DNA from: Lujinxingiaceae bacterium
GTDB lineage: Bacteria; Myxococcota_A; Bradymonadia; Bradymonadales; Bradymonadaceae
Assembly: GCA_013697635.1 (NCBI GenBank)
Contig: JACCWM010000201.1
Coordinates: 62,001-126,000, forward strand
DNA: 64,000 nucleotides
Direction: 5' to 3'
Every line of letters begins with the position of its first letter. Position 1 is the stretch's first letter. Both the position numbers and the translations under genes were made by a program. The notes under the pieces were generated by a model. The model ran no database searches. It saw nothing but the letters and a program-made list of their open reading frames with translations, and was not told the DNA's origin. Of this stretch, positions 15,167 to 30,219 are shown in pieces.

Positions 15167-16000
15167 CTATTTCTGGCCGTAGGTGGGGTCGAAGAGTGCG
15201 ATCGAGAGTGGCAGCGGCTCGGTGCCTTCGACCAGCGCGTACTGACCGAAGTCGGTGACGCCCTGCTCGCGCAAAAGCTGCTCGTCCAAGAAGGCATTTG
15301 CGGTGCAGTCACTGGGCTTCTGGGTGACGATGGCGAGCACGGTATCGACCAGGATCTGGGGCGTTCGCCACATCTCTTCGGTGCCCATGCCGAAGTGGCG
15401 CGTGGCCTGAGAGTCGACGGCGGTAACCGGCCAGAAGGCGTTGACGCCGATGTTGTGCTCGCGCACTTCCTCAGCGAGCGACTGGGCGATGAAGGTCATT
15501 CCCAGCTTGGAGAGGGCGTAGGCTGCCTTGTGGGGGGCGCGGTCGATGCTGATCGGCGGTGAGGCCATCAGGATGTGACCGTATTGTTGTTTGATCATGT
15601 GAGGCAGGGCGTAGAAGCTGCAGACGTAGGCTGCGCGCGCGTTGATCCCCATCATCAAATCGAAGCGCTTGGGCGGTGTGTCGAGCACGGAGGCCATGTG
15701 GATCGCGCCGGCATTGTTGATCAGGATGTCGAGGCGGCCCCAGGTTTCGATCGTGAGGTTGATCGCGGCCTCGATCTGCTCGTCGTAGCGAACGTCGAGC
15801 TGAATGGCCAGCGCCTGGCCGCCGCGCGCTTCGATCTCGGCGACCGTCTCGTGGATGGTGCCGGGAAGCACGCCATGGGGATCGGAGGTTTTGGCGGTGA
15901 CGACGACCTTGCAGCCTTCTTTGGCCAGGCCGATGGCGATTTCTTTGCCAATTCCGCGGCTTGCGCCCGTGATAAACGCGACTTGTCCTTGCAGCCTCAT
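15167..16000 (-). CDS. SDR-family oxidoreductase, HSDL2-like
   Basis: NAD(P)-dependent short-chain dehydrogenase of 277 aa. TGASRGIGKEIA is the cofactor loop, NNAGAIH the structural Asn motif, and YALSK carries the catalytic Tyr and Lys. The segments TAKTSDPHGVLPGTI, SVLDTPPKRFDLMMGINAR and VNAFWPVTAVDS match the mammalian HSDL2 type more than FabG-type enzymes; HSDL2 is linked to lipid metabolism, but its substrate is poorly defined. The C-terminal sterol-carrier domain of HSDL2 is absent. The start ATG at 16000 has GGAG 6 bases upstream. Divergent from the kinase-domain gene. Confidence 0.82.
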   Translation of the reverse strand: MRLQGQVAFITGASRGIGKEIAIGLAKEGCKVVVTAKTSDPHGVLPGTIHETVAEIEARGGQALAIQLDVRYDEQIEAAINLTIETWGRLDILINNAGAIHMASVLDTPPKRFDLMMGINARAAYVCSFYALPHMIKQQYGHILMASPPISIDRAPHKAAYALSKLGMTFIAQSLAEEVREHNIGVNAFWPVTAVDSQATRHFGMGTEEMWRTPQILVDTVLAIVTQKPSDCTANAFLDEQLLREQGVTDFGQYALVEGTEPLPLSIALFDPTYGQK

Positions 16001-16099
16001 CAAAGTCTCCATTTCCGTGTATAGTTTGGTCCTCGAAAGCGGCAACGTTATCTGCAACGACCCAGTGAAGCAAGCGCGGCCAAAGCCCGGAGTTGCACC

Positions 16100-16606
16100 A
16101 TGAAGATTGTGATCGCCGAGTTTTCGCTCGTCGTGCTCATTGGCCCGTCAGGCTGCGGAAAATCGAGCTTTGCCAGACGTCATTTCCTGGCGACCGAGAT
16201 CGTCTCCTCGGACGGGTGTCGGGCACTGGTCTGCGACGACGAGAGCAACCAGAGAGCGAGCGCGGATGGCTTCGAGTTGCTGAACTTCATTGCGAACAAG
16301 AGGCTGGCGCGCGGGCGTTTGACAGTGATCGATGCGACCAGCGTTCAAAAGCGCGCGCGCAGGGAACTGCTCGAGCTGGCGCGCACCCATGGTTGCCCGG
16401 CGGTGGCGATCGTCTTCGATTTGCCCCAGGAGCTGTGCGTGGCGCGAGACGCCGCGCGCGTTGGTCGAAACGTCGGCCCCGAGATCGTCCAGAAGCAACG
16501 CCTGCACCTCGATCAGGCGCTCGGCGAGCTGGCCGACGAGGGTTTTGAGCAGGTCGTGGTGCTCACCACGGCCGAACAGGTCGATGCGGCCAGCATCGAG
16601 CGATGA
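16100..16606 (+). CDS. Stand-alone PNKP-type polynucleotide 5'-kinase domain (168 aa)
   Basis: P-loop kinase with Walker A GPSGCGKS at residues 15-22, then the EIVSSDGCR block, the DDESNQ segment, the lid-type helix FELLNFIANKRLARGRLTVI and DATSVQKRARRELL. This order closely matches the N-terminal kinase domain of bacterial Pnkp, the RNA-repair enzyme that normally continues into phosphatase and ligase domains (over 800 aa). Here the protein stops just after VDAASIER, the domain boundary. No hen1, phosphatase or ligase gene is adjacent. A nucleic-acid or nucleotide kinase role is likely, RNA repair less certain. Confidence 0.75.
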   Translation: MKIVIAEFSLVVLIGPSGCGKSSFARRHFLATEIVSSDGCRALVCDDESNQRASADGFELLNFIANKRLARGRLTVIDATSVQKRARRELLELARTHGCPAVAIVFDLPQELCVARDAARVGRNVGPEIVQKQRLHLDQALGELADEGFEQVVVLTTAEQVDAASIER

Positions 16607-16610
16607 AAAG

Positions 16611-18782
16611 TCACTCGGCAACAACTCCAAAGGTTGGCACTTCGAGTCGATTCAAGATGAAGGCCTGGCTGAGCGCGATCTCGCGGTAGGCGTTGTAGCG
16701 ACCGGAGGCTCCGCCGTGGCCAGCGCCCATGTTGGTCTTGAGCAGCAGCAGGTTGTCGTCGGTCTTCTTGGCACGCAGCTTGGCCGCCCACTTGGCGGGC
16801 TCCCAGTAGGCTACGCGCGAGTCGTTGAGCCCGGCCGTGATCAACATGGCCGGGTAGTCCTGAGCCACGACGTTCTCGTAGGGCGCGTAGCTTCGCATGT
16901 AGTCGAAGTAGTCACGCTCGTTGGGGTTACCCCACTCCTTGTACTCGATCACGGTGAGCGGGATGCTCGGATCGAGCATGGTGTTGATCACGTCGACAAA
17001 GGGCACGTCGGCGATCACGGCGCCGAAGAGCTCGGGGCGCAGGTTGATCACGGCGCCCATGAGCAGGCCGCCGGCGCTGCCGCCCTGGATGGCCAGGCGC
17101 TCGGGGCGCGTGTAGCCCTGGGCGATCAGATGCTCGGCGCTGGCGATGAAGTCGGTGAAGGTGTTGCGCTTGTTCATCAGCTTTCCGGCCTCATACCAGG
17201 GCCTGCCAAGCTCGCCGCCGCCGCGGATATGGGCCAGGGCATAGATCACGTTGCGCTCGAGCAGCGAGACGCGCGACGAGGAGAAGTAGGGGTCGTAGGG
17301 ATAGCCGTAGGAGCCGTAGCCCACGAGCAGCACCGGGTTGTTCGAGTCGAGCGCGATGCCCTTTTTGTGCACGATCGAGATCGGGATCTGGGTGCCGTCG
17401 GCGGCCGTGGCAAAGACACGTTTGGTCTCATAGAGTGTGCGGTCGTATTGCTTGACGACCTGCTCCTTTTTGAGCTCGAGCTTTTGGGCCGCCAGGTCGT
17501 AGTCAAACACCGATTCGGGGGTGACCAGCGAGCTGTAGCCGATGCGAAAGCTCGAGGCATCAAAGACCAGGTTCTCGCCAGCCCACAAGGCATAGACCGA
17601 CTCGGGCATTTTGATGTGGTGCTCCTCGCCGCTGGCCAGGTGGCGAACCCGAAGCTGAGCCAGGCCGCGCTCGCGCTCATGGATGATCAACCAATCTTTG
17701 AGGGCGCTGACGCCAGCCAACATGACCTCGGGGCGGTGGGCGATCAGCTCCTCCCAGGTGGCGCGCGCCGGGTTGGCCGTCGCCGCGCGCATCAGTCGAA
17801 AGTTTTGCGCGTCTTCGTTGGTCATGATCAGAAAGTGGTCGCCCTGGTGCTCGACATAGTACTCGACGCCGGGCTGGCGCTCGGCGATGAGCGCGAATGC
17901 GGCGTCGGGCTGGTCAGCCGCCAGATAGCGCACCTCGGACTGAGCGATGCTGCCCAGGGTGAGGATCAGAAACTTGCCGCTTCGCGTCTTGGAGATGCCC
18001 GCATAAAAGCCCTCGTCGGCCTCGTGGTAGACGAGCACGTCTTCGGAGCTCGGTGTGCCAAGCGTGTGGCGCAGCAGCTTGTCAGGGCGGTTGGTCTCGT
18101 CGAGCGTGGTGTAGAAGACGCTCTTCGCGTCGCTTGCCCAGGCCACGGCGCCGACATTGGCGATGCGCTCGCCCCAGTGCTCGCCGGTGGTCAAATCCTT
18201 GAAGCGCAAGGTGGCGCGCTCGTTTCCGACCGTGTCGATCAGGTAGGCCAGGATGCGGTGGTCGTCGCTGAGCGCGTAGCCATTGAGCGAGAAGAAGTCG
18301 TGACCCTCGGCCATGGCGTTCTGGTCGAGCAGCACTTGTTCATCACCCTCGAGGTCGTGGGGCTTGCGGCACAAGATCGGATAATTCTTTCCCTGCTCGG
18401 TGCGTGAGTAATAGACGTAGTCGCCGTGGCGAACCGGCACCGAGAGGTCGGTCTCCTCGATGCGCGCGATCATCTCCTCGTAGAGCGTGTTTTGCAGTTC
18501 TTCGGTCGTGGCCATGGCGGTGGCCGCATAAGCGTTCTCGGCCTCGAGGTAGGCTATTGTCTCGGGGTTGGCCCGATCGCGCAGCCAGAAATAGGAGTCG
18601 ACCAGCGTGAGGCCGTGGACCTCGGTGATGTGCTCGACGCGCTTTGCCACCGGCGGCACATGGCCAGGCGCCTGAACAGGCACATCTTTGGCCGGTTGCG
18701 ACGTGCTGGTGCCGGCACAGCCGGCGATGAGCAACAAGAGCGTGCAGACGGCGATCGAGCGGTGGATCAATGCCAGGTTCAT
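16611..18782 (-). CDS. Lipoprotein S9A oligopeptidase (prolyl oligopeptidase/oligopeptidase B family)
   Basis: Serine peptidase of 723 aa, predicted to be a lipoprotein (lipobox LLIAGCAG). The N-terminal half is the beta-propeller, with FWLRDRANPETIAYLEAENAY typical of oligopeptidase B. The C-terminal alpha/beta-hydrolase domain holds the triad Ser569 (QGGSAGGL), Asp654 (LNDSRV) and His689 (AGHGG). The YGYPYDPYFSSSR block precedes it. It would hydrolyse short peptides outside the cytoplasm, perhaps after basic residues, useful for a protein-degrading predator. It ends 4 bases from the convergent kinase gene. Confidence 0.88.
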   Translation of the reverse strand: MNLALIHRSIAVCTLLLLIAGCAGTSTSQPAKDVPVQAPGHVPPVAKRVEHITEVHGLTLVDSYFWLRDRANPETIAYLEAENAYAATAMATTEELQNTLYEEMIARIEETDLSVPVRHGDYVYYSRTEQGKNYPILCRKPHDLEGDEQVLLDQNAMAEGHDFFSLNGYALSDDHRILAYLIDTVGNERATLRFKDLTTGEHWGERIANVGAVAWASDAKSVFYTTLDETNRPDKLLRHTLGTPSSEDVLVYHEADEGFYAGISKTRSGKFLILTLGSIAQSEVRYLAADQPDAAFALIAERQPGVEYYVEHQGDHFLIMTNEDAQNFRLMRAATANPARATWEELIAHRPEVMLAGVSALKDWLIIHERERGLAQLRVRHLASGEEHHIKMPESVYALWAGENLVFDASSFRIGYSSLVTPESVFDYDLAAQKLELKKEQVVKQYDRTLYETKRVFATAADGTQIPISIVHKKGIALDSNNPVLLVGYGSYGYPYDPYFSSSRVSLLERNVIYALAHIRGGGELGRPWYEAGKLMNKRNTFTDFIASAEHLIAQGYTRPERLAIQGGSAGGLLMGAVINLRPELFGAVIADVPFVDVINTMLDPSIPLTVIEYKEWGNPNERDYFDYMRSYAPYENVVAQDYPAMLITAGLNDSRVAYWEPAKWAAKLRAKKTDDNLLLLKTNMGAGHGGASGRYNAYREIALSQAFILNRLEVPTFGVVAE

Positions 18783-21418: not shown

Positions 21419-22876
21419 ATGAGATATACCAGAGAAGGCAAGACTCGGCGCATTGGTGGTGGCCTGTTGGCGTCCGCCGCAGCGGCGATGCTTTTGCTCG
21501 GTGGCTCGGTGGCGGGAGCCAACACCGGCGAGCAGACGCAACAACAACCTCGACAACAGCAAGATGGTACGCAGGTCACCGACCTCGACCAGTTGGAGGC
21601 GGCCGAATTCGAGGAAGGTCCGCTCGGCGGCGGACCGGTTGGACCCGAAGAGGTCCAGAACTTTGTCGAATTCATTCAAAATCAGTCCGTAGAGTACACG
21701 AGCAACGGCCTCGAGCAGTTCAACCAGGCACTCGGCGCCTTCATCCAGGAGGATGTGGAGGGCCAAGAGCAGTTGCAGCAGCGCCACCAGGCGCTCCAAG
21801 AGCGCATTGGCCAGATCAGCAACGCTGAGCAACCTCAGCAGCAAGCGCAGCTTGCCACGCAGGCCATTCAAGAGGGCTCGCAGCTTCTCGTGACCATCCA
21901 GGAGCAGCGCTTTCCGCAAGCAGGCCAGCTCGTTCAGCCCGTTCAACAGGCTGCCCAGCAGATCGAAGCCAACAAGAGCCTCGACCAGCAGTTGGACAAC
22001 GTCCATGCGTTCTTCTTGGAGTCCGGCCAGGCCTTCCGCCAGATGGCTCAAGCTCAAGAGCAAGAGGAGCAAGCAGGCATTGAGGACGAACAAGACCCGA
22101 TCGGCGGTGGACCGGCCGAAGGTGAAGAGTACGAGCAACAAGAGCAAGACGAGCAGATGATGGAAGAGGACGAGCAGCTGATGGAAGAGGAAGATCCCAT
22201 CGGTGGTGGTCCGGCCATGCAGGACAACGAGGTGCGCCACTTCACCCAGTTTATCCAGAGCTATCAGCAGCAGCCCATGGAGAGCCATGAGCTCTTTGCC
22301 TACGTCGGTTTTGACCGTCTGGCCCGAGCCATCGGTGAAGTCGCCAAGGATGACCAAGAGGTCGGACAGCAGCAGCAAGTCCAGCCCGGCCAGCAGCAGC
22401 AGCAGCCTGGTCAAGCTCAGCAGCAGCAGCCTGGTCAAGCTCAGCAGCCCCGTCAGCAACAAGCCCAAGGTCAACAGCAGATACAGCAACAGCACCAGCA
22501 GCTGACCCAGCAGATCCAGCAGCTCGTTCAGGTTCGCCAGCCCGAGCAGCAGGCTCGCCTGGTGCGCCAACTCGCCATGCAAAGTGCTCAGCTGCTGAAT
22601 TTGGCTGCCCAGGAGGCGCCGCAGCAGGTTCGTCAGCAAGCCCAGCAGCTTCAGCAGACGGCTCAGCAGATTCAGCCCGAAGCCGGCCTCGAGGAGCAGC
22701 AGCAGCAGATCCAGCAGTTCTTCCAGCAGTCCGCCCAGGTCCTCCAGCAAATAGAGCAGGTCGGCGTTGGCGGCGGCCCTGAGGAGCACGAGCAGCACGA
22801 GCAACACGAGCAGCTCGAGCAACAAGAGCAACAAGAGCAACAAGAGCAGCTTCAGCAGCAGGAACAGGACGAATAA
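21419..22876 (+). CDS. Exported Gln-rich protein with an internal duplication (485 aa)
   Basis: A signal peptide (LLASAAAAMLLLGGSVAGA) is followed by a protein in which Gln and Glu dominate. Two long halves share the same order: a GGGP motif (EGPLGGGPVGPEE and DPIGGGPAMQDNE), a helix with NFVEFIQNQ or HFTQFIQSY, a Gln-rich spacer, then a long helical unit (QPQQQAQLATQAIQ... and QPEQQARLVRQLAM...). A third GGGP comes near the C-terminus, before a Glu/Gln/His tail. The unit is helical and probably coiled-coil. No family recognised. The gene is preceded by AGTAGGGAGTGAAGC-like bases and followed by a strong terminator. It is next to, but not transcribed with, the ole genes. Confidence 0.75.
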   Translation: MRYTREGKTRRIGGGLLASAAAAMLLLGGSVAGANTGEQTQQQPRQQQDGTQVTDLDQLEAAEFEEGPLGGGPVGPEEVQNFVEFIQNQSVEYTSNGLEQFNQALGAFIQEDVEGQEQLQQRHQALQERIGQISNAEQPQQQAQLATQAIQEGSQLLVTIQEQRFPQAGQLVQPVQQAAQQIEANKSLDQQLDNVHAFFLESGQAFRQMAQAQEQEEQAGIEDEQDPIGGGPAEGEEYEQQEQDEQMMEEDEQLMEEEDPIGGGPAMQDNEVRHFTQFIQSYQQQPMESHELFAYVGFDRLARAIGEVAKDDQEVGQQQQVQPGQQQQQPGQAQQQQPGQAQQPRQQQAQGQQQIQQQHQQLTQQIQQLVQVRQPEQQARLVRQLAMQSAQLLNLAAQEAPQQVRQQAQQLQQTAQQIQPEAGLEEQQQQIQQFFQQSAQVLQQIEQVGVGGGPEEHEQHEQHEQLEQQEQQEQQEQLQQQEQDE

Positions 22877-23023: not shown

Positions 23024-24040
23024 ATGCGTTTTGGCAACGTGATGGTAGCGGGGCTGGGCTACGTGGATGCCCCGCACGTGGTGCGCTCCGAGCAGCTCGA
23101 GGAGCAACTCGGCGACGTGCTCGTGCGCGCCGGCCTGCACAAGGGCCTGCTCTACGCGCTGACGGGCATCGCCGAGCGCCGCTTCTGGGACGTGGGTGCC
23201 CAGGTCAGCGCGGTCGCAGCGCGCGCCGGCGCGCTCGCGCTTGACGACGCGGCCATTGGCCCCGAGCAGGTCGGCGTTTTGGTGAGCACCTCGGTATGCA
23301 AGGACTTTGTCGAGCCTTCGGTCGCCTCGGCGGCCCACGGGCTGCTCGGCCTCTCGAGCGATTGCCTCAACTTCGACGTCGGTAACGCCTGCCTGGGTTT
23401 TTTGAACGGCATGCAGGTCGTTGGCGACATGATCGAGCGCGGCCACATCGACTACGGTCTGATCGTCGACGGCGAGGGCAGCCGCCCGGTGGTCGAAGCC
23501 ACGATTGCGCGCATGCTGCAGCCCGGTGTGAACCCCGAGGCGCTTCGCAACCAGCTCGCCACCTTCACGCTGGGCTCAGGCGCTGCCGCGATAGTGCTCG
23601 CCCGGCGCGAGCTCGCCCCCAACGGCCACAGGCTCGTCGGCGCTGTCAACAAGGCCGCCACCCAGTACAACGATCTGTGCCGCGGCCAGGTCGATTCGAT
23701 GGAGACCGATGCCGGCAACTTGCTCGTGCGCGGCATCGAGCTTGCCGCCGACACCTTCGCGCTGGCCCGCGAGCAGCTCGGCTGGCATCCTGACGTGCTC
23801 GACGAGCTCGTCGTGCACCAGGTCAGCGCGGTTCACACCGCAAAGTTCGCCGAGCGCCTCTCGCTCGATTCCAAAAAGATCTTCAAGCTCTACCCCACCC
23901 ACGGCAATATCGGGCCGGCGTCGATTCCGATCGCGCTTTGCAAGGCTCGCGAGGCTGGACGGCTCTTCGACGGCGCGCGCGTCGCTCTGATGGGCATTGG
24001 TAGTGGGCTCAACTGCTCGATGATGGAGGTACTATGGTGA
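23024..24040 (+). CDS. oleA: OleA, acyl-CoA head-to-head condensing enzyme
   Basis: Thiolase-fold enzyme of 338 aa, first step of long-chain olefin synthesis: it joins two fatty acyl-CoAs to a 2-alkyl-3-ketoacid. The KAS III-like triad is Cys123 (GNACLGF), His265 (VHQVSAVH) and Asn295 (THGNIGPAS). The Glu in DFVEPS fits the OleA-specific glutamate from the partner subunit rather than FabH. AAGGA lies 6 bases before the ATG. It overlaps oleB by 7 bases. Context with oleB, oleC and oleD makes the assignment firm. Confidence 0.92.
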   Translation: MRFGNVMVAGLGYVDAPHVVRSEQLEEQLGDVLVRAGLHKGLLYALTGIAERRFWDVGAQVSAVAARAGALALDDAAIGPEQVGVLVSTSVCKDFVEPSVASAAHGLLGLSSDCLNFDVGNACLGFLNGMQVVGDMIERGHIDYGLIVDGEGSRPVVEATIARMLQPGVNPEALRNQLATFTLGSGAAAIVLARRELAPNGHRLVGAVNKAATQYNDLCRGQVDSMETDAGNLLVRGIELAADTFALAREQLGWHPDVLDELVVHQVSAVHTAKFAERLSLDSKKIFKLYPTHGNIGPASIPIALCKAREAGRLFDGARVALMGIGSGLNCSMMEVLW

Positions 24041-24951
24041 TCATGACGACCCAAAAACCCCAGGGCGCGTCCTCGCTCGGCATTTCGCATGCGCTCTATC
24101 CCTTTGGTGCTCACTACCACGAGATCGCCGCCGATGTGCGCATGCACTATATCGACGAGGGCCAGGGAGATCCGGTCGTCATGGTCCATGGCAACCCGTC
24201 CTGGTCGTTTTACTACCGCAATCTGGTCAACGCGCTCTCGCCCACGCACCGCACGATCGTGCCCGACCATATCGGCTGCGGGCTCTCCGACAAGCCCGAC
24301 GACGCTCACTACAACTACACGCTCTCCCAGCGCGTCGAAGACCTCGAGAGTCTGCTCGAGTCGTTGGGCATCCGTGAGAACATCACGCTGATCGTGCACG
24401 ATTGGGGTGGCATGATCGGTATGACCTACGCCACGCACTATCCCGAGCGCATCAAGCGCCTGGTGATTATGAACACGGCGGCCTTTCATCTGCCCTCGGC
24501 CAAGTCCTTTCCCCTGCCGCTTCGCCTGGCTCGCGACAGCAGCGTCGGCTCGCTGCTGATCAGCCACTTCAATGCCTTCAGCCGAAGCGCCGCCAAGGTC
24601 TGCGTCTCCGAGCCGATGCCGCCCGAGGTCGCCCACGCCTACACCGCGCCCTACAACAGCCCCGAGAATCGCATCGCGACCTTGCGCTTCGTGCAGGACA
24701 TCCCGCTCCAGCCCAGCGACCGCGCCTACGCGCTGGTCAGCGAGACCGAGCAGAAGCTGCCCACGCTCGCGCACCTGCCGATCCTGATCTGCTGGGGCGG
24801 CAAGGATTTTGTCTTCGATCGCCATTTTCTCGCGCGCTGGCGCGAGATTTATCCACTGGCCAAGGTCGTCGAGTTCGACGAGGCCGGCCACTACGTGCTC
24901 GAGGACCGCGCCGAGGAGATCGAGGCGCTGGTCAAAGAATTTCTGGGCTGA
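24034..24951 (+). CDS. oleB: OleB, beta-lactone decarboxylase (alpha/beta hydrolase)
   Basis: Haloalkane-dehalogenase-type alpha/beta hydrolase of 305 aa; in the ole pathway it decarboxylates the beta-lactone to the cis-olefin. Seen are HGNPSWSFYY with His52, the nucleophile Asp123 in HDWGG, and the base His286 in EAGHYVLED. The ATG at 24034 follows GGAGG by 5 bases and overlaps the oleA stop. Some bacteria fuse OleB to OleC; here they are separate with a 29-base gap. Confidence 0.9.
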   Translation: MVIMTTQKPQGASSLGISHALYPFGAHYHEIAADVRMHYIDEGQGDPVVMVHGNPSWSFYYRNLVNALSPTHRTIVPDHIGCGLSDKPDDAHYNYTLSQRVEDLESLLESLGIRENITLIVHDWGGMIGMTYATHYPERIKRLVIMNTAAFHLPSAKSFPLPLRLARDSSVGSLLISHFNAFSRSAAKVCVSEPMPPEVAHAYTAPYNSPENRIATLRFVQDIPLQPSDRAYALVSETEQKLPTLAHLPILICWGGKDFVFDRHFLARWREIYPLAKVVEFDEAGHYVLEDRAEEIEALVKEFLG

Positions 24952-24980
24952 AGAGCCCCCACCGGCGTACGGAGCGACAC

Positions 24981-26651
24981 GTGGAGCCAAAACCCAGCGT
25001 CAACATCGCCTCGGCGCTCACGCGCATGGCCCTCAAGATGCCCGAGGCGCCGGCCATCTTGTTTCCGCTTGGCCGAGACGCCAGCGGCAAGCAGCGCTAC
25101 GAGACGACGAGCTACAAGGCGCTCGACGAGGAGAGCGATTGCATCGCCGCCGGGCTGATCGCCTCGGGTATCGGGCCGGGCACGCGCGCGACACTGATGG
25201 TCAAGCCGAGCACGGAGTTCTTTGCGTTGACCTTTGCGCTCTTCAAGGCGGGCATCGTGCCCGTGCTCGTCGATCCGGGCATCGGGATCAAGAGCCTCAA
25301 CGTGTGTTTGGACGAGGCCGAGCCGCAGGCGTTCATCGGGATCACCTCGGCCCACGTTGCGCGCAGCGTGCTGGGCTGGGGCAAGCGCAGCATTCGCACC
25401 AACGTGACGGTGGGCCGCCGGCTGTTCTGGGGCGGGCTGACGCTGGAGGCCGTCAAGCAGGCCGGGCGCGAGGTCAAGGACTTTCAGGCGCCGGGCGTGC
25501 AGGCCGACGATATCGCCGCGATCATCTTTACCAGCGGGAGCACGGGCGTTCCCAAGGGCGCGATCTACACCCACGGCAACTTCATGGCTCAGGTCGAGTT
25601 CATCGGGCGCACCTACGCCATTGAGCCTGGCGAGGTCGATCTGCCGACCTTCCCCCTCTTTGCGCTCTTCGATCCGGCGCTGGGCATGACGACCATCATC
25701 CCCGAGATGGACGCCACGCGCCCGGCCAACGTCGAGCCGCGCAACATCATCGAGCCCATCCTCGAGTTCGGCGTCACGAACATGTTCGGATCGCCGGCGC
25801 TGTTAAACCGTGTCAGCCGCTACGGTGTCGAGCACGGCGTCAAGCTGCCCACGCTTCGGCGCGTGATCTCGGCCGGCGCGCCCGTGCCGGCCGCCGTGCT
25901 CGAGCGATTTACGGCGATGCTGCCCGAAGACGCGCAGGTCTTCACACCTTATGGCGCCACCGAGTCGCTGCCCGTGGCCTCGATCGGCAGCAACGAGATC
26001 TTGGAGGAGACTCGCCATGCCACGGATCTTGGCAAGGGCGTCTGTATTGGCCGCCCGGTCGAGGGCGTGCGCGTCGAGGTGATCGGCATCGACGACGAGG
26101 CGATCGACGCCTGGTCGGACGCGCTGCGCGTCGAGGTGGGTGTGGTCGGCGAGTTTGTCGTGATGGGCCCGCAGGTCACGACCTCCTATCACAATCGCGA
26201 CGCCTCGACGCGGCTGGCCAAGATCAAGGGCCCCGATGGCCAGACCATGCACCGCATGGGCGATGTGGGCTATTTCGACGAGGCCGGGCGCATGTGGTTT
26301 TGCGGTCGAAAGACCCACCGCGTGATCACGGCCCAGGAGACCATGTTCACGATCCCCTGCGAGGCGATCTTCAACACCCACAAGGCCGTCTACCGCACGG
26401 CGCTCGTCGGCGTCAGCCGGGGCGGCCAGATCAAGCCCGTGCTCTGCGTCGAGCGCGAGGCGACAACCGACGGCCCCGCACCCGGCGACGCCGCGCTTCG
26501 CGCCGAGCTGCTCGCCCTGGGCGCAGCGCATGCGCACACGGCGAGCATCGCCGACGTCTTGTTTCACAAGGCGTTTCCTGTCGATATCCGCCACAACTCG
26601 AAGATATTCAGGGAGAAGTTGGCCGTCTGGGCCGACAAGAAATTGCCATGA
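24981..26651 (+). CDS. oleC: OleC, beta-lactone synthetase (AMP-dependent ligase fold)
   Basis: Adenylate-forming enzyme of 556 aa that turns the beta-hydroxyacid from OleD into a beta-lactone. The AMP-binding P-loop IIFTSGSTGVPKG lies near residues 180-192; TPYGATESLP is the A5 motif and MHRMGDVGYFDEAGRMWF the A7 region. The catalytic hinge is followed by FCGRKTHRV; HNSKIFREKLA near the end is A10-like with its Lys. The start is the GTG at 24981 with GGAG 6 bases upstream; the frame is open further upstream but only as an artefact inside oleB. The stop overlaps oleD (ATGA). Confidence 0.92.
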   Translation: MEPKPSVNIASALTRMALKMPEAPAILFPLGRDASGKQRYETTSYKALDEESDCIAAGLIASGIGPGTRATLMVKPSTEFFALTFALFKAGIVPVLVDPGIGIKSLNVCLDEAEPQAFIGITSAHVARSVLGWGKRSIRTNVTVGRRLFWGGLTLEAVKQAGREVKDFQAPGVQADDIAAIIFTSGSTGVPKGAIYTHGNFMAQVEFIGRTYAIEPGEVDLPTFPLFALFDPALGMTTIIPEMDATRPANVEPRNIIEPILEFGVTNMFGSPALLNRVSRYGVEHGVKLPTLRRVISAGAPVPAAVLERFTAMLPEDAQVFTPYGATESLPVASIGSNEILEETRHATDLGKGVCIGRPVEGVRVEVIGIDDEAIDAWSDALRVEVGVVGEFVVMGPQVTTSYHNRDASTRLAKIKGPDGQTMHRMGDVGYFDEAGRMWFCGRKTHRVITAQETMFTIPCEAIFNTHKAVYRTALVGVSRGGQIKPVLCVEREATTDGPAPGDAALRAELLALGAAHAHTASIADVLFHKAFPVDIRHNSKIFREKLAVWADKKLP

Positions 26652-27643
26652 GAGCTCTGGTCACCGGCGGCGGCGGATTTTTGGGCAAGGCGATCGCAGC
26701 CCAGCTGCTCGCCCGCGGCGACGAGGTGCGTGTCTTCGCCCGCGCCGACTACCCCGAGCTTCGCGAGATGGGCGCCGAGACCGTGCGCGGCGACATCGCC
26801 AACGCCACCGAAGTGGCCGCGGCCGCAGCCGGCTGCGACGTGGTCTTTCACGTCGCGGCCAAGGCCGGCGTCTGGGGCCCCTACGAGGATTTTTACCGCA
26901 CCAACGTCGAGGGCACCCGCGCGGTGATCGCCGCCTGCCTCGAGCACGGCGTCAAACGCCTGGTCTACACCAGCTCGCCAAGCGTCGTCTCCGGCGACCA
27001 CGACCTGCTCGGCGTCGATGAATCGGTGCCCTATCCCACGCACTATATCGCCCACTATCCCAAGACCAAGGCCGAGGCCGAGCGCCTCGTTCGCGCCGCT
27101 AACGGCCCCACGCTCTCCACCGTCTCGCTTCGCCCCCACCTGATCTGGGGCCCCGGCGACAATCACCTCGTGCCCCGCATCGTCGCCCGCGCCCGAAGCG
27201 GCAAGCTGCGAAAGATCGGCGACGGCCGCTACCTCGTCGACTCGGTCTACATCGATAACGCCGCCTTGGCCCACCTGCTCGCTGCCGAGCACCTCACCCC
27301 CGACTCCCCCGTCGCCGGCAAGGTCTATTTCATCTCCCAGGACGAACCCGTCGACGTCGGCGAGCTCATGGACCGCATCATCGCCGCCGCCGGCCTCCCC
27401 CCCGTCACCCGCAGCGTACCCCCCAAGCTCGCCTACTTCGCCGGCTGGCTCAGCGAGAAGCTCTACACAGCCCTCGGCAAGAAAGAAGAGCCCCTGATGA
27501 CCCGCTTCGTCGCCAAGCAGCTCTCCACGGCCCACTATTTCGACATCTCGGCAGCCAAGGCCGACTTCGGCTACGCGCCCACCGTCTCAATCGACGAGGG
27601 CATGGAGCGCCTCGCCGTCTGGCTGCGCACCGCAGCGCCGTAG
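26648..27643 (+). CDS. oleD: OleD, 2-alkyl-3-ketoacid reductase (extended SDR)
   Basis: NAD(P)H-dependent reductase of 331 aa in the 3-beta-HSD/epimerase family that reduces the OleA product. TGGGGFLGKAIA is the cofactor loop, YTSSPSVV gives the catalytic Ser region, and YPKTKAEAE carries the Tyr-x3-Lys pair. Start ATG overlaps the oleC stop by 4 bases, so the pair is translationally coupled. Last gene of the ole operon. Confidence 0.92.
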   Translation: MRALVTGGGGFLGKAIAAQLLARGDEVRVFARADYPELREMGAETVRGDIANATEVAAAAAGCDVVFHVAAKAGVWGPYEDFYRTNVEGTRAVIAACLEHGVKRLVYTSSPSVVSGDHDLLGVDESVPYPTHYIAHYPKTKAEAERLVRAANGPTLSTVSLRPHLIWGPGDNHLVPRIVARARSGKLRKIGDGRYLVDSVYIDNAALAHLLAAEHLTPDSPVAGKVYFISQDEPVDVGELMDRIIAAAGLPPVTRSVPPKLAYFAGWLSEKLYTALGKKEEPLMTRFVAKQLSTAHYFDISAAKADFGYAPTVSIDEGMERLAVWLRTAAP

Positions 27644-28840: not shown

Positions 28841-29479
28841 TCAATACAGCCCCGGACACTGGTCGCCGAGCGAGGCGCAAGCGGCGGGTTCTTCGGTTTC
28901 TTCAAAGAGCACGGCGATCTTTTCGAAGCCCTCCTCGGTGGTCAGGCTCGCGCAGCTCTCGGAGTTGAAGCCAGCCAACTGCGCGCGGTCGAAACTGATC
29001 CGGGCCTCACGGCAGGCGGTCAGCTCGTTGACCGTCGCCGCACAGCTCTCCTGGGCCTCCACGCTGAAGCAATCGTCGGAGACCAGTGGATCTTCGTCGT
29101 CGGCCATGCAGTCGTCGAAGTATCCCTGGCAGGCGGCCGCCTTGCTCGCATCGGTGTCTTCGTCCTCAGCGTCAAACACCGCATTCAAGGCGGCGCTGAC
29201 CAGGCAACTGCTGCGCCCGGAGGGGGTGCTCACATCATAGAGGGCGTCAAATGCAGCGCCGTCGGCGTGGCAAACCGCCGTGGTCTGGGCTTCGCTCAGA
29301 TCTTTGATTAGCATCTCGCCGGTGAACGCGGCGTTGTTGGAGTTGTTGGTGTTGTTGGAGTTGTTGGTGTTGTTGGCCGTCCTGTTGTTCGATCGCACGG
29401 TCGAACCTTCACCACAACCGAAGGCTGAACCCAGCGAGATCACCAGCAAAACGGTCAAGACTCTCTCAAAACCTTTCAT
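28841..29479 (-). CDS. Asn-linker lipoprotein of unknown function (212 aa), copy 1
   Basis: Lipoprotein signal ends at FGCGEG, followed by a linker almost entirely of Asn with Thr/Ser (NNTNNSNN units), then a domain of about 150 residues with six or more Cys: AVCHADG, SSCLV, ACQGYFDDCMAD, DDCFS, QESCAA, TACREA, ending CASLGDQCPGLY. The start is the ATG at 29479 with GGAG 6 bases upstream (the longer form adds MEQE). Paralogue of the gene at 29536-30180, which it follows by 56 bases. Asn linkers of this kind are common in lipoproteins of this bacterial group. Function unknown. Confidence 0.75.
   Translation of the reverse strand: MKGFERVLTVLLVISLGSAFGCGEGSTVRSNNRTANNTNNSNNTNNSNNAAFTGEMLIKDLSEAQTTAVCHADGAAFDALYDVSTPSGRSSCLVSAALNAVFDAEDEDTDASKAAACQGYFDDCMADDEDPLVSDDCFSVEAQESCAATVNELTACREARISFDRAQLAGFNSESCASLTTEEGFEKIAVLFEETEEPAACASLGDQCPGLY
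29333..29376. repeat. 9-bp microsatellite encoding the Asn linker (copy 1)
   Basis: On the plus strand gttgttgga and gttgttggt alternate 4.9 times, an 18-bp period. Read from the minus strand this gives Asn-Asn-Ser/Thr. Such repeats can change copy number by slippage without breaking the frame, so linker length may vary between strains. Confidence 0.85.
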
Positions 29480-29535
29480 TTCCTGCTCCATGTTCACTAC
29501 AAGAAAAAGGCCGGCGTTGCGGCCTTCGCGGGCAC

Positions 29536-30180
29536 TCAATACAGGTCTGGGCACTTTTCGTAGAGCGTCTCGCAGGCGGCGATTTCGTCGCCCTCGTCGA
29601 AGTTCTCGTCGAACTCCAGGTAGCCGTCGGCCGTGGTATCGTCGACGCAGCTCGCGCTGTCGTAGGCGGCCCATCGCGCGCGCTCAGCGCTGATATCGGC
29701 CACGGCGCAAGCCTCGAACTCGGCGATGGTCGCCTCACAGGCAGCCTGGCCCACCGGATCAAAGCAAAACTCCAGGTCTTCGGCTTCATCGGCCACGCAG
29801 TCGTCGTAGATCTCCTGGCAGACGGCCGCTATGGAAGCTTCGTCGTCCTCGACGCCGGCACCAAGCACGGCGTCATAGATGCCGCTGACCTTGCAATAGC
29901 CGCGACCGGCAGGCGTACTTGGGTCGTAGATCGAGGCATAGGCGGCGTTGTCCGCGTCGCAAAGTGCCTGGACCTGAGCCGCGCTCAAATTCTTGATCAA
30001 AGTAGCGCCGGTAACCGGGGTTTCGTTGTTGGTGTTGTTTGCGTTGTTGGTGTTGTTTGAGTTGTTGGCGTTGTTTGAGTTGTTGGCGTTGTTCGCCTTC
30101 GAGCCGTCGTCTCCGCAGCCCACCATCGCTCCCAGCGAAACGACCAGCAATACGGCCAAAACTCTCTTCAAACCTTTCAT
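29536..30180 (-). CDS. Asn-linker lipoprotein of unknown function (214 aa), copy 2
   Basis: Same plan as its downstream neighbour: signal LAVLLVVSLGAMVGC, an Asn-rich linker of about 30 residues with Ala, Ser and Thr, then an acidic Cys-containing domain. Shared blocks are the LSxAQ start (NLSAAQVQALCDADNAA), STPAGRGYC, YDDCVADEAED and the end CETLYEKCPDLY. The start ATG at 30180 has GGAG 6 bases upstream, identical in spacing to copy 1. A tandem duplication is the simplest origin. Function unknown. Confidence 0.75.
   Translation of the reverse strand: MKGLKRVLAVLLVVSLGAMVGCGDDGSKANNANNSNNANNSNNTNNANNTNNETPVTGATLIKNLSAAQVQALCDADNAAYASIYDPSTPAGRGYCKVSGIYDAVLGAGVEDDEASIAAVCQEIYDDCVADEAEDLEFCFDPVGQAACEATIAEFEACAVADISAERARWAAYDSASCVDDTTADGYLEFDENFDEGDEIAACETLYEKCPDLY
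30025..30093. repeat. 9-bp microsatellite encoding the Asn linker (copy 2)
   Basis: About 7.5 units of gttgtt plus a variable triplet (ggt, tgc, tga, ggc). It is more degenerate than in copy 1 but has the same period. Confidence 0.8.
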
Positions 30181-30219
30181 CTCTAGCTCCATGTTCAACG
30201 TTGATTAATGCAATCAGGG

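Follow-up and report, generated by a model that had tools for sequence, protein, structure and literature searches.

The window analyzed here, a 64,000-nucleotide stretch from a Lujinxingiaceae bacterium, encodes a 168-aa protein that begins at the sole in-frame start codon after the preceding in-frame stop at position 16022 (Table 1). The GC content of the gene by codon position (0.68/0.43/0.79) resembled that of the neighboring genes, and a sigma-70 scan gave no promoter-like site for it. The divergent short-chain dehydrogenase, whose true start is probably an ATG near 16002, occupies the side of the kinase gene where relatives carry hen1. On the other side, the convergent prolyl oligopeptidase gene lies too close to the kinase stop for a remnant of a phosphatase or ligase to fit between them. 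The initial annotation had described a kinase domain with no phosphatase, ligase, or hen1 nearby, and the neighbors bore this out: none of the three was found among them, nor was any debris of them present at the locus.

Table 1. Features of the kinase locus (positions are those of the window)
Feature	Position	Strand	Basis or remark
Short-chain dehydrogenase	15167..16057	-	ORF listing and family match; divergent from the kinase gene
GGAG, ribosome-binding-site-like	16089..16092	+	Read from the sequence; 7 nt upstream of the ATG
Stand-alone Pnkp-type 5'-OH polynucleotide kinase, 168 aa	16100..16606	+	Profile, PDB sequence match, predicted fold; ATG 16100, stop TGA 16604-16606 (ORF listing)
P-loop GPSGCGKSS, residues 15-23 (K21, S22)	16142..16168	+	CthPnkp alignment
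SSDGCR, residues 36-41 (acceptor-site D38 and R41)	16205..16222	+	CthPnkp alignment
Lid segment, residues 116-123 (R116, R120, R123)	16445..16468	+	CthPnkp alignment
Prolyl oligopeptidase	16611..18782	-	Convergent with the kinase gene, with 4 bp between its end and the kinase stop

Orthologues of the prolyl oligopeptidase were present in 8 other genomes of the family. Around its loci in 7 family genomes (14-16 kb each), none of the 12 other window genes used as queries was found nearby. The neighborhood was therefore rejected as a clue to function, being neither conserved in the family nor linking a partner gene to the kinase. A defense context was also rejected, since the PADLOC matches were weak and of the P-loop type (mad8, 2.9e-4; mad3, 5e-4).

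Profile, sequence, and predicted fold agreed that the protein is the N-terminal kinase domain of Pnkp, ending exactly at the domain boundary, as had been proposed from the sequence. Its best NCBIfam match was bacter_Pnkp (TIGR04075; profile positions 1-168 of 851; E 1.4e-61, 208.7 bits), with the second-best family at E 3.9e-5, and its Pfam match was AAA_33 (E 1.6e-27). In a sequence search of solved structures, PDB 4gp6 was matched over residues 1-168 (E 4.7e-45), and the only strong relatives were kinase-domain structures of Clostridium thermocellum Pnkp (CthPnkp; 171 residues), with the whole query aligned. These solved constructs consist of the kinase domain alone (170-171 residues), indicating that the domain folds by itself. 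On the genome, the TIGR04075 alignment extended 6 residues beyond the kinase stop, an overrun that may reflect either noise or a vestige of a linker since lost. The equivalog definition of TIGR04075 calls for more than 750 bits, whereas this protein scored 208.7 and has neither the central phosphatase nor the C-terminal ligase; by that definition it lies outside Pnkp, yet it is a stand-alone member of the Pnkp kinase-domain family. The initial annotation had named zeta toxin and shikimate kinase as examples of families that would overturn its assignment. Neither was among the 15 Pfam families matched at E <= 0.1, and shikimate kinase ranked far below Pnkp in a structural (Foldseek) comparison. 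Two further candidates were discarded: KTI12 (22.1 bits against a cut-off of 22.0) covered residues 10-121 only rather than the whole length, and PSTK reached 19.8 bits against a cut-off of 290.5.

The protein aligned with the CthPnkp kinase domain across 168 columns without gaps, at 46% identity. Nine of ten active-site positions were identical (K21, S22, D38, R41, Q51, T80, R116, R120, and R123), and the tenth, T23, was conservatively replaced by serine. From structural work on CthPnkp, we take the P-loop lysine and serine to be catalytic, D38 to be the general base, R41 to belong to the acceptor site, and R116, R120, and R123 to be the lid arginines. Both D38 and R41 were present in all 45 full-length rows compared. 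We defined a near-invariant column as one in which a single residue occurs in at least 93% of these 45 rows (n = 36 columns). The window kinase keeps 33 of the 36, differing at P6 (A), A57 (G), and N81 (S), and falls within the range of 33 to 36 found in the 28 rows of the FULL set. It had no close relative among the rows compared, its best identity over the full length being 58%. A monomer model predicted from the window protein and 24 related rows had a mean pLDDT of 95.4 and superimposed on 4gp6 with a TM score of 0.98 (Z 31.2; rmsd 0.7 A across 168 residues). The kinase therefore shares fold, length, and active-site residues with the CthPnkp kinase domain (4gp6, 4gp7, 4jst, 4mde); in CthPnkp, however, this domain forms the N terminus of a larger kinase-phosphatase-ligase protein, whereas in the window it is the whole protein. 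The next structural matches of the model were mammalian PNKP (Z 17.7), PSTK (Z 16.9), and T4 polynucleotide kinase (Z 15.9). The T4 and mammalian enzymes share the fold at about 20% identity to the window protein, and each also has a phosphatase domain, though one of a different type.

Kinases encoded alone were also found outside the phylum. A scan of genome contigs gave four loci, of which two were lone kinases in Ktedonobacterales metagenome-assembled genomes; a full Pnkp is present as well in one of these two genomes (G378), and the other (G377) has none. Of 400 Chloroflexota genomes searched, 104 had a match at E <= 1e-12, for a total of 120 matches, 55 in frames of <=260 aa and 36 in frames of >600 aa. 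We fetched 40 of the 55 short-frame loci (the remaining 15 need not all be genuine), and 38 had their own stop and, within the sequence fetched, neither a phosphatase nor a ligase of Pnkp; the exceptions were a frameshifted full-length gene (L093) and a locus that runs off its contig (L077). Among these 38, 20 pairs were at least 75% identical, and the 15 that were computable had dN/dS values of 0.033-0.170, for pairs that are non-independent, include one with saturated dS, omit L077, and come from a phylum other than that of the window gene. These low values indicate that the lone kinases of Chloroflexota are maintained by selection. Their gene contexts differ from that of the window, although they share its single kinase domain and have largely kept the catalytic residues. 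In a set of 37 loci that leaves out L077, L078, and L093, alaS lay near the lone kinase in 18, mostly divergent (e.g., L094 and L111), and a HAD-like hydrolase frame lay within about 5 kb in 16, at variable distance. A HAD phosphatase as a split partner in Ktedonobacteria is no more than a lead, and no such frame was present at the window locus.

On plasmids, 184 records matched the kinase (159 from Streptomyces); matches to phages were weaker (14 records). Two Streptomyces plasmid loci (L059 and L060) encode lone 174-aa kinases annotated "AAA family ATPase," again with largely conserved catalytic residues in a gene context unlike that of the window, and two other plasmid copies have ~160 additional C-terminal residues. 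At L059 and L060 the kinase shares a 4-bp overlap with a 137-aa ORF, whose L059 copy had no Pfam match. Within a partial literature collection, we found no account of stand-alone Pnkp-type kinases. That lone kinases are common in another phylum suggests a job independent of the rest of the repair enzyme.

One alternative to such a job is that this lineage once had a complete hen1-pnkp operon and lost it, the kinase piece being a short-lived, functionless leftover. In a class sample of 57 genomes, Pnkp was over cut-off in 9 and Hen1 in 10, the tenth Hen1-bearing genome (G001) having a Pnkp truncated by a contig end; by coordinates, hen1 lay directly upstream of full Pnkp on the same strand in all nine, a distribution that fits the loss of an operon, as does termination exactly at the kinase boundary. 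Another class genome (G031) has Pnkp in pieces, which is also in keeping with such a loss. The open frame, the ribosome-binding-site-like sequence, the retention of all checked active-site positions and of 33/36 near-invariant columns, the complete predicted fold, and a locus without phosphatase, ligase, or hen1 debris nevertheless argue against a leftover.

In a phylum sample of 377 genomes, 46 kinase matches at E <= 1e-20 occurred in 44 genomes, and three of these matches were in frames of <260 aa: those of the source genome, G035, and G156. The lone kinase of G035, a member of the same class, is 180 aa, and neither G035 nor G156 had another Pnkp piece at E <= 1e-6. In G031 (contig C23, locus L032), a 547-aa kinase-phosphatase frame is followed by a ligase piece in a different frame, and the Hen1-like sequence upstream is no more than a short stretch; this is either a decaying system or the product of assembly errors.

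In two trees, the window kinase was placed beside lone kinases of the Ktedonobacteria type rather than with the full-length Pnkp of its own family. Support for this grouping was modest, at 97/69 in the smaller tree and 90/72, beside a long branch, in the larger tree, which omits L037 and L063 (long branches) and L077 (runs off its contig). AU tests on 168 columns left two alternatives standing: a grouping of the window kinase with four full-length kinases from its own family (P = 0.131), which is compatible with a leftover of local origin, and one clade that holds every one of the 45 lone rows (P = 0.134). The label ALONE changes 4 times in the smaller tree and 5 times in the larger, and the starred branches force 2 changes. 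These counts point to more than one change of the lone state, although one lone clade is not rejected by the AU test. With neither placement rejected, the window copy may have arisen by local loss or by transfer. Its end branch was 0.33 against a median of 0.21 in the larger tree and 0.40 against 0.32 in the smaller, and so not long. Taking these points together, we consider a functionless leftover unlikely.

A second alternative is split repair in trans, with the kinase working alongside unlinked partners such as a separate ligase and phosphatase. The source genome is 99.45% complete (213 contigs), and across it we found no match to PF16542 (Pnkp ligase), no RtcB, and no Hen1 over cut-off (best E 8.4e-4, methyltransferase part only). 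The only TIGR04075 matches were the kinase and one weak metallophosphatase-like stretch on contig C20 (E 1.3e-5), so that a clear Pnkp phosphatase was not found either. The absence of partners that the initial annotation had noted around the gene therefore extends to the entire genome. The candidates for a trans pathway would be the C20 stretch and the one ATP-dependent ligase-like gene, which encodes 494 aa on contig C200, matches PF01068 and PF04679 over cut-off, and belongs to a separate run of three genes. However, nothing connects either to the kinase; the C20 match is weak and general, with two stops inside its aligned part, and the C200 ligase is of the DNA-ligase type (NHEJ-ligase-like), with PF09414 below cut-off. 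With RtcB and an over-cut-off Hen1 missing as well, repair in trans seems quite improbable. The run on C200 (8691-11556, minus strand) ends in the ligase gene, whose product has an extra C-terminal part, and the two proteins encoded upstream of it had no Pfam or NCBIfam match.

It is more improbable still that the fold was retained while the substrate shifted to a small molecule or a special RNA: the same P-loop fold does serve gluconokinases, PSTK, and others, but acceptor-site D38, R41, and Q51 and the lid arginines match full-length Pnkp, and the gapless 46% identity to CthPnkp is far closer than that to any other solved kinase.

Of the three options that the initial annotation had left side by side (a split system, a remnant, or a free kinase), the evidence therefore favors the free kinase, and the other two less so. 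We assign a probability of roughly 0.7 to the gene product being a polynucleotide 5'-kinase of the CthPnkp type that is intact and self-sufficient. The activity, substrate, and role that we infer for it are as follows. Judging from the complete predicted fold and active site, NTP-dependent phosphorylation of 5'-OH ends would probably be its reaction. NTP-Mg would be bound in the P-loop beneath the arginine lid, and the gamma phosphate would be transferred to the 5'-OH ends of RNA, and probably of DNA too, D38 likely serving as general base. The kinase would act without covalently linked phosphatase and ligase, and the resulting 5'-phosphate ends could be passed to enzymes of general function that depend on a 5'-phosphate (nucleases of RNA decay, or a DNA ligase). 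Since the genome is without Hen1 over cut-off, Pnkp ligase, and RtcB, such a hand-over appears likelier than sealing of the Pnkp-Hen1 type. The kinase step would be common to the window protein and the Pnkp-Hen1 RNA repair system, full versions of which occur in the same family; in that system, however, hen1 adjoins pnkp, whereas the window genome lacks a Pnkp ligase, a Hen1 over cut-off, and a clear Pnkp phosphatase. The Pnkp1-Rnl-Hen1 complex (4xrp) contains a 5'-kinase from the same superfamily (Z 14.8) but a different phosphatase and a separate ligase and Hen1 (PMC4411300), of which the window genome showed no sign.

With low confidence, we would rank RNA decay or DNA-end healing above repair in trans as the cellular role. 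Precedents for both have been described: in yeast, cleaved RNA becomes open to decay by Xrn1 through the action of the Trl1 kinase (PMC6456296), and in Deinococcus, a PNKP that phosphorylates DNA at 5'-OH ends reportedly works together with LigA in healing and ligating nicks (PMC1997131). A wider proposal, which we regard as tentative and on balance doubtful, is that single-domain Pnkp-type kinases form a widespread, unrecognized class that phosphorylates the 5'-OH RNA fragments left by ribotoxins or metal-independent RNases for clearance by 5'-phosphate-dependent nucleases. The window gene would be a member, its genome keeping only this step while several relatives keep the whole Pnkp-Hen1 system. 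If true, this would be a bacterial form of kinase-mediated decay, a task other than repair. Pnkp is described as a single heal-and-seal protein, but kinase-only versions occur in many genomes without or beside the full enzyme, and they make a separate bacterial use of the 5' phosphorylation of broken RNA testable. An identity would also be gained for small proteins whose annotation goes no further than AAA-family or ATP-binding, and compact natural 5'-end kinases would become available. The interest is modest for the window gene itself and greater for the lone-kinase class.

Elsewhere in the window, an ole (olefin) cluster (23024-27643, plus strand) comprises genes for an OleA-like 3-oxoacyl synthase, an OleB-like hydrolase, and an OleC-like olefin beta-lactone synthetase, followed by one for an OleD-like reductase, the last recognized by sequence only. 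A repetitive 485-aa ORF rich in glutamine and glutamate lies at 21419-22876 (plus strand), where the reverse frame is also long and open. Two adjacent, similar ORFs at 28841-30198 (minus strand), predicted to be lipoprotein-like and with Asn-rich linkers, are apparently a tandem duplicate.
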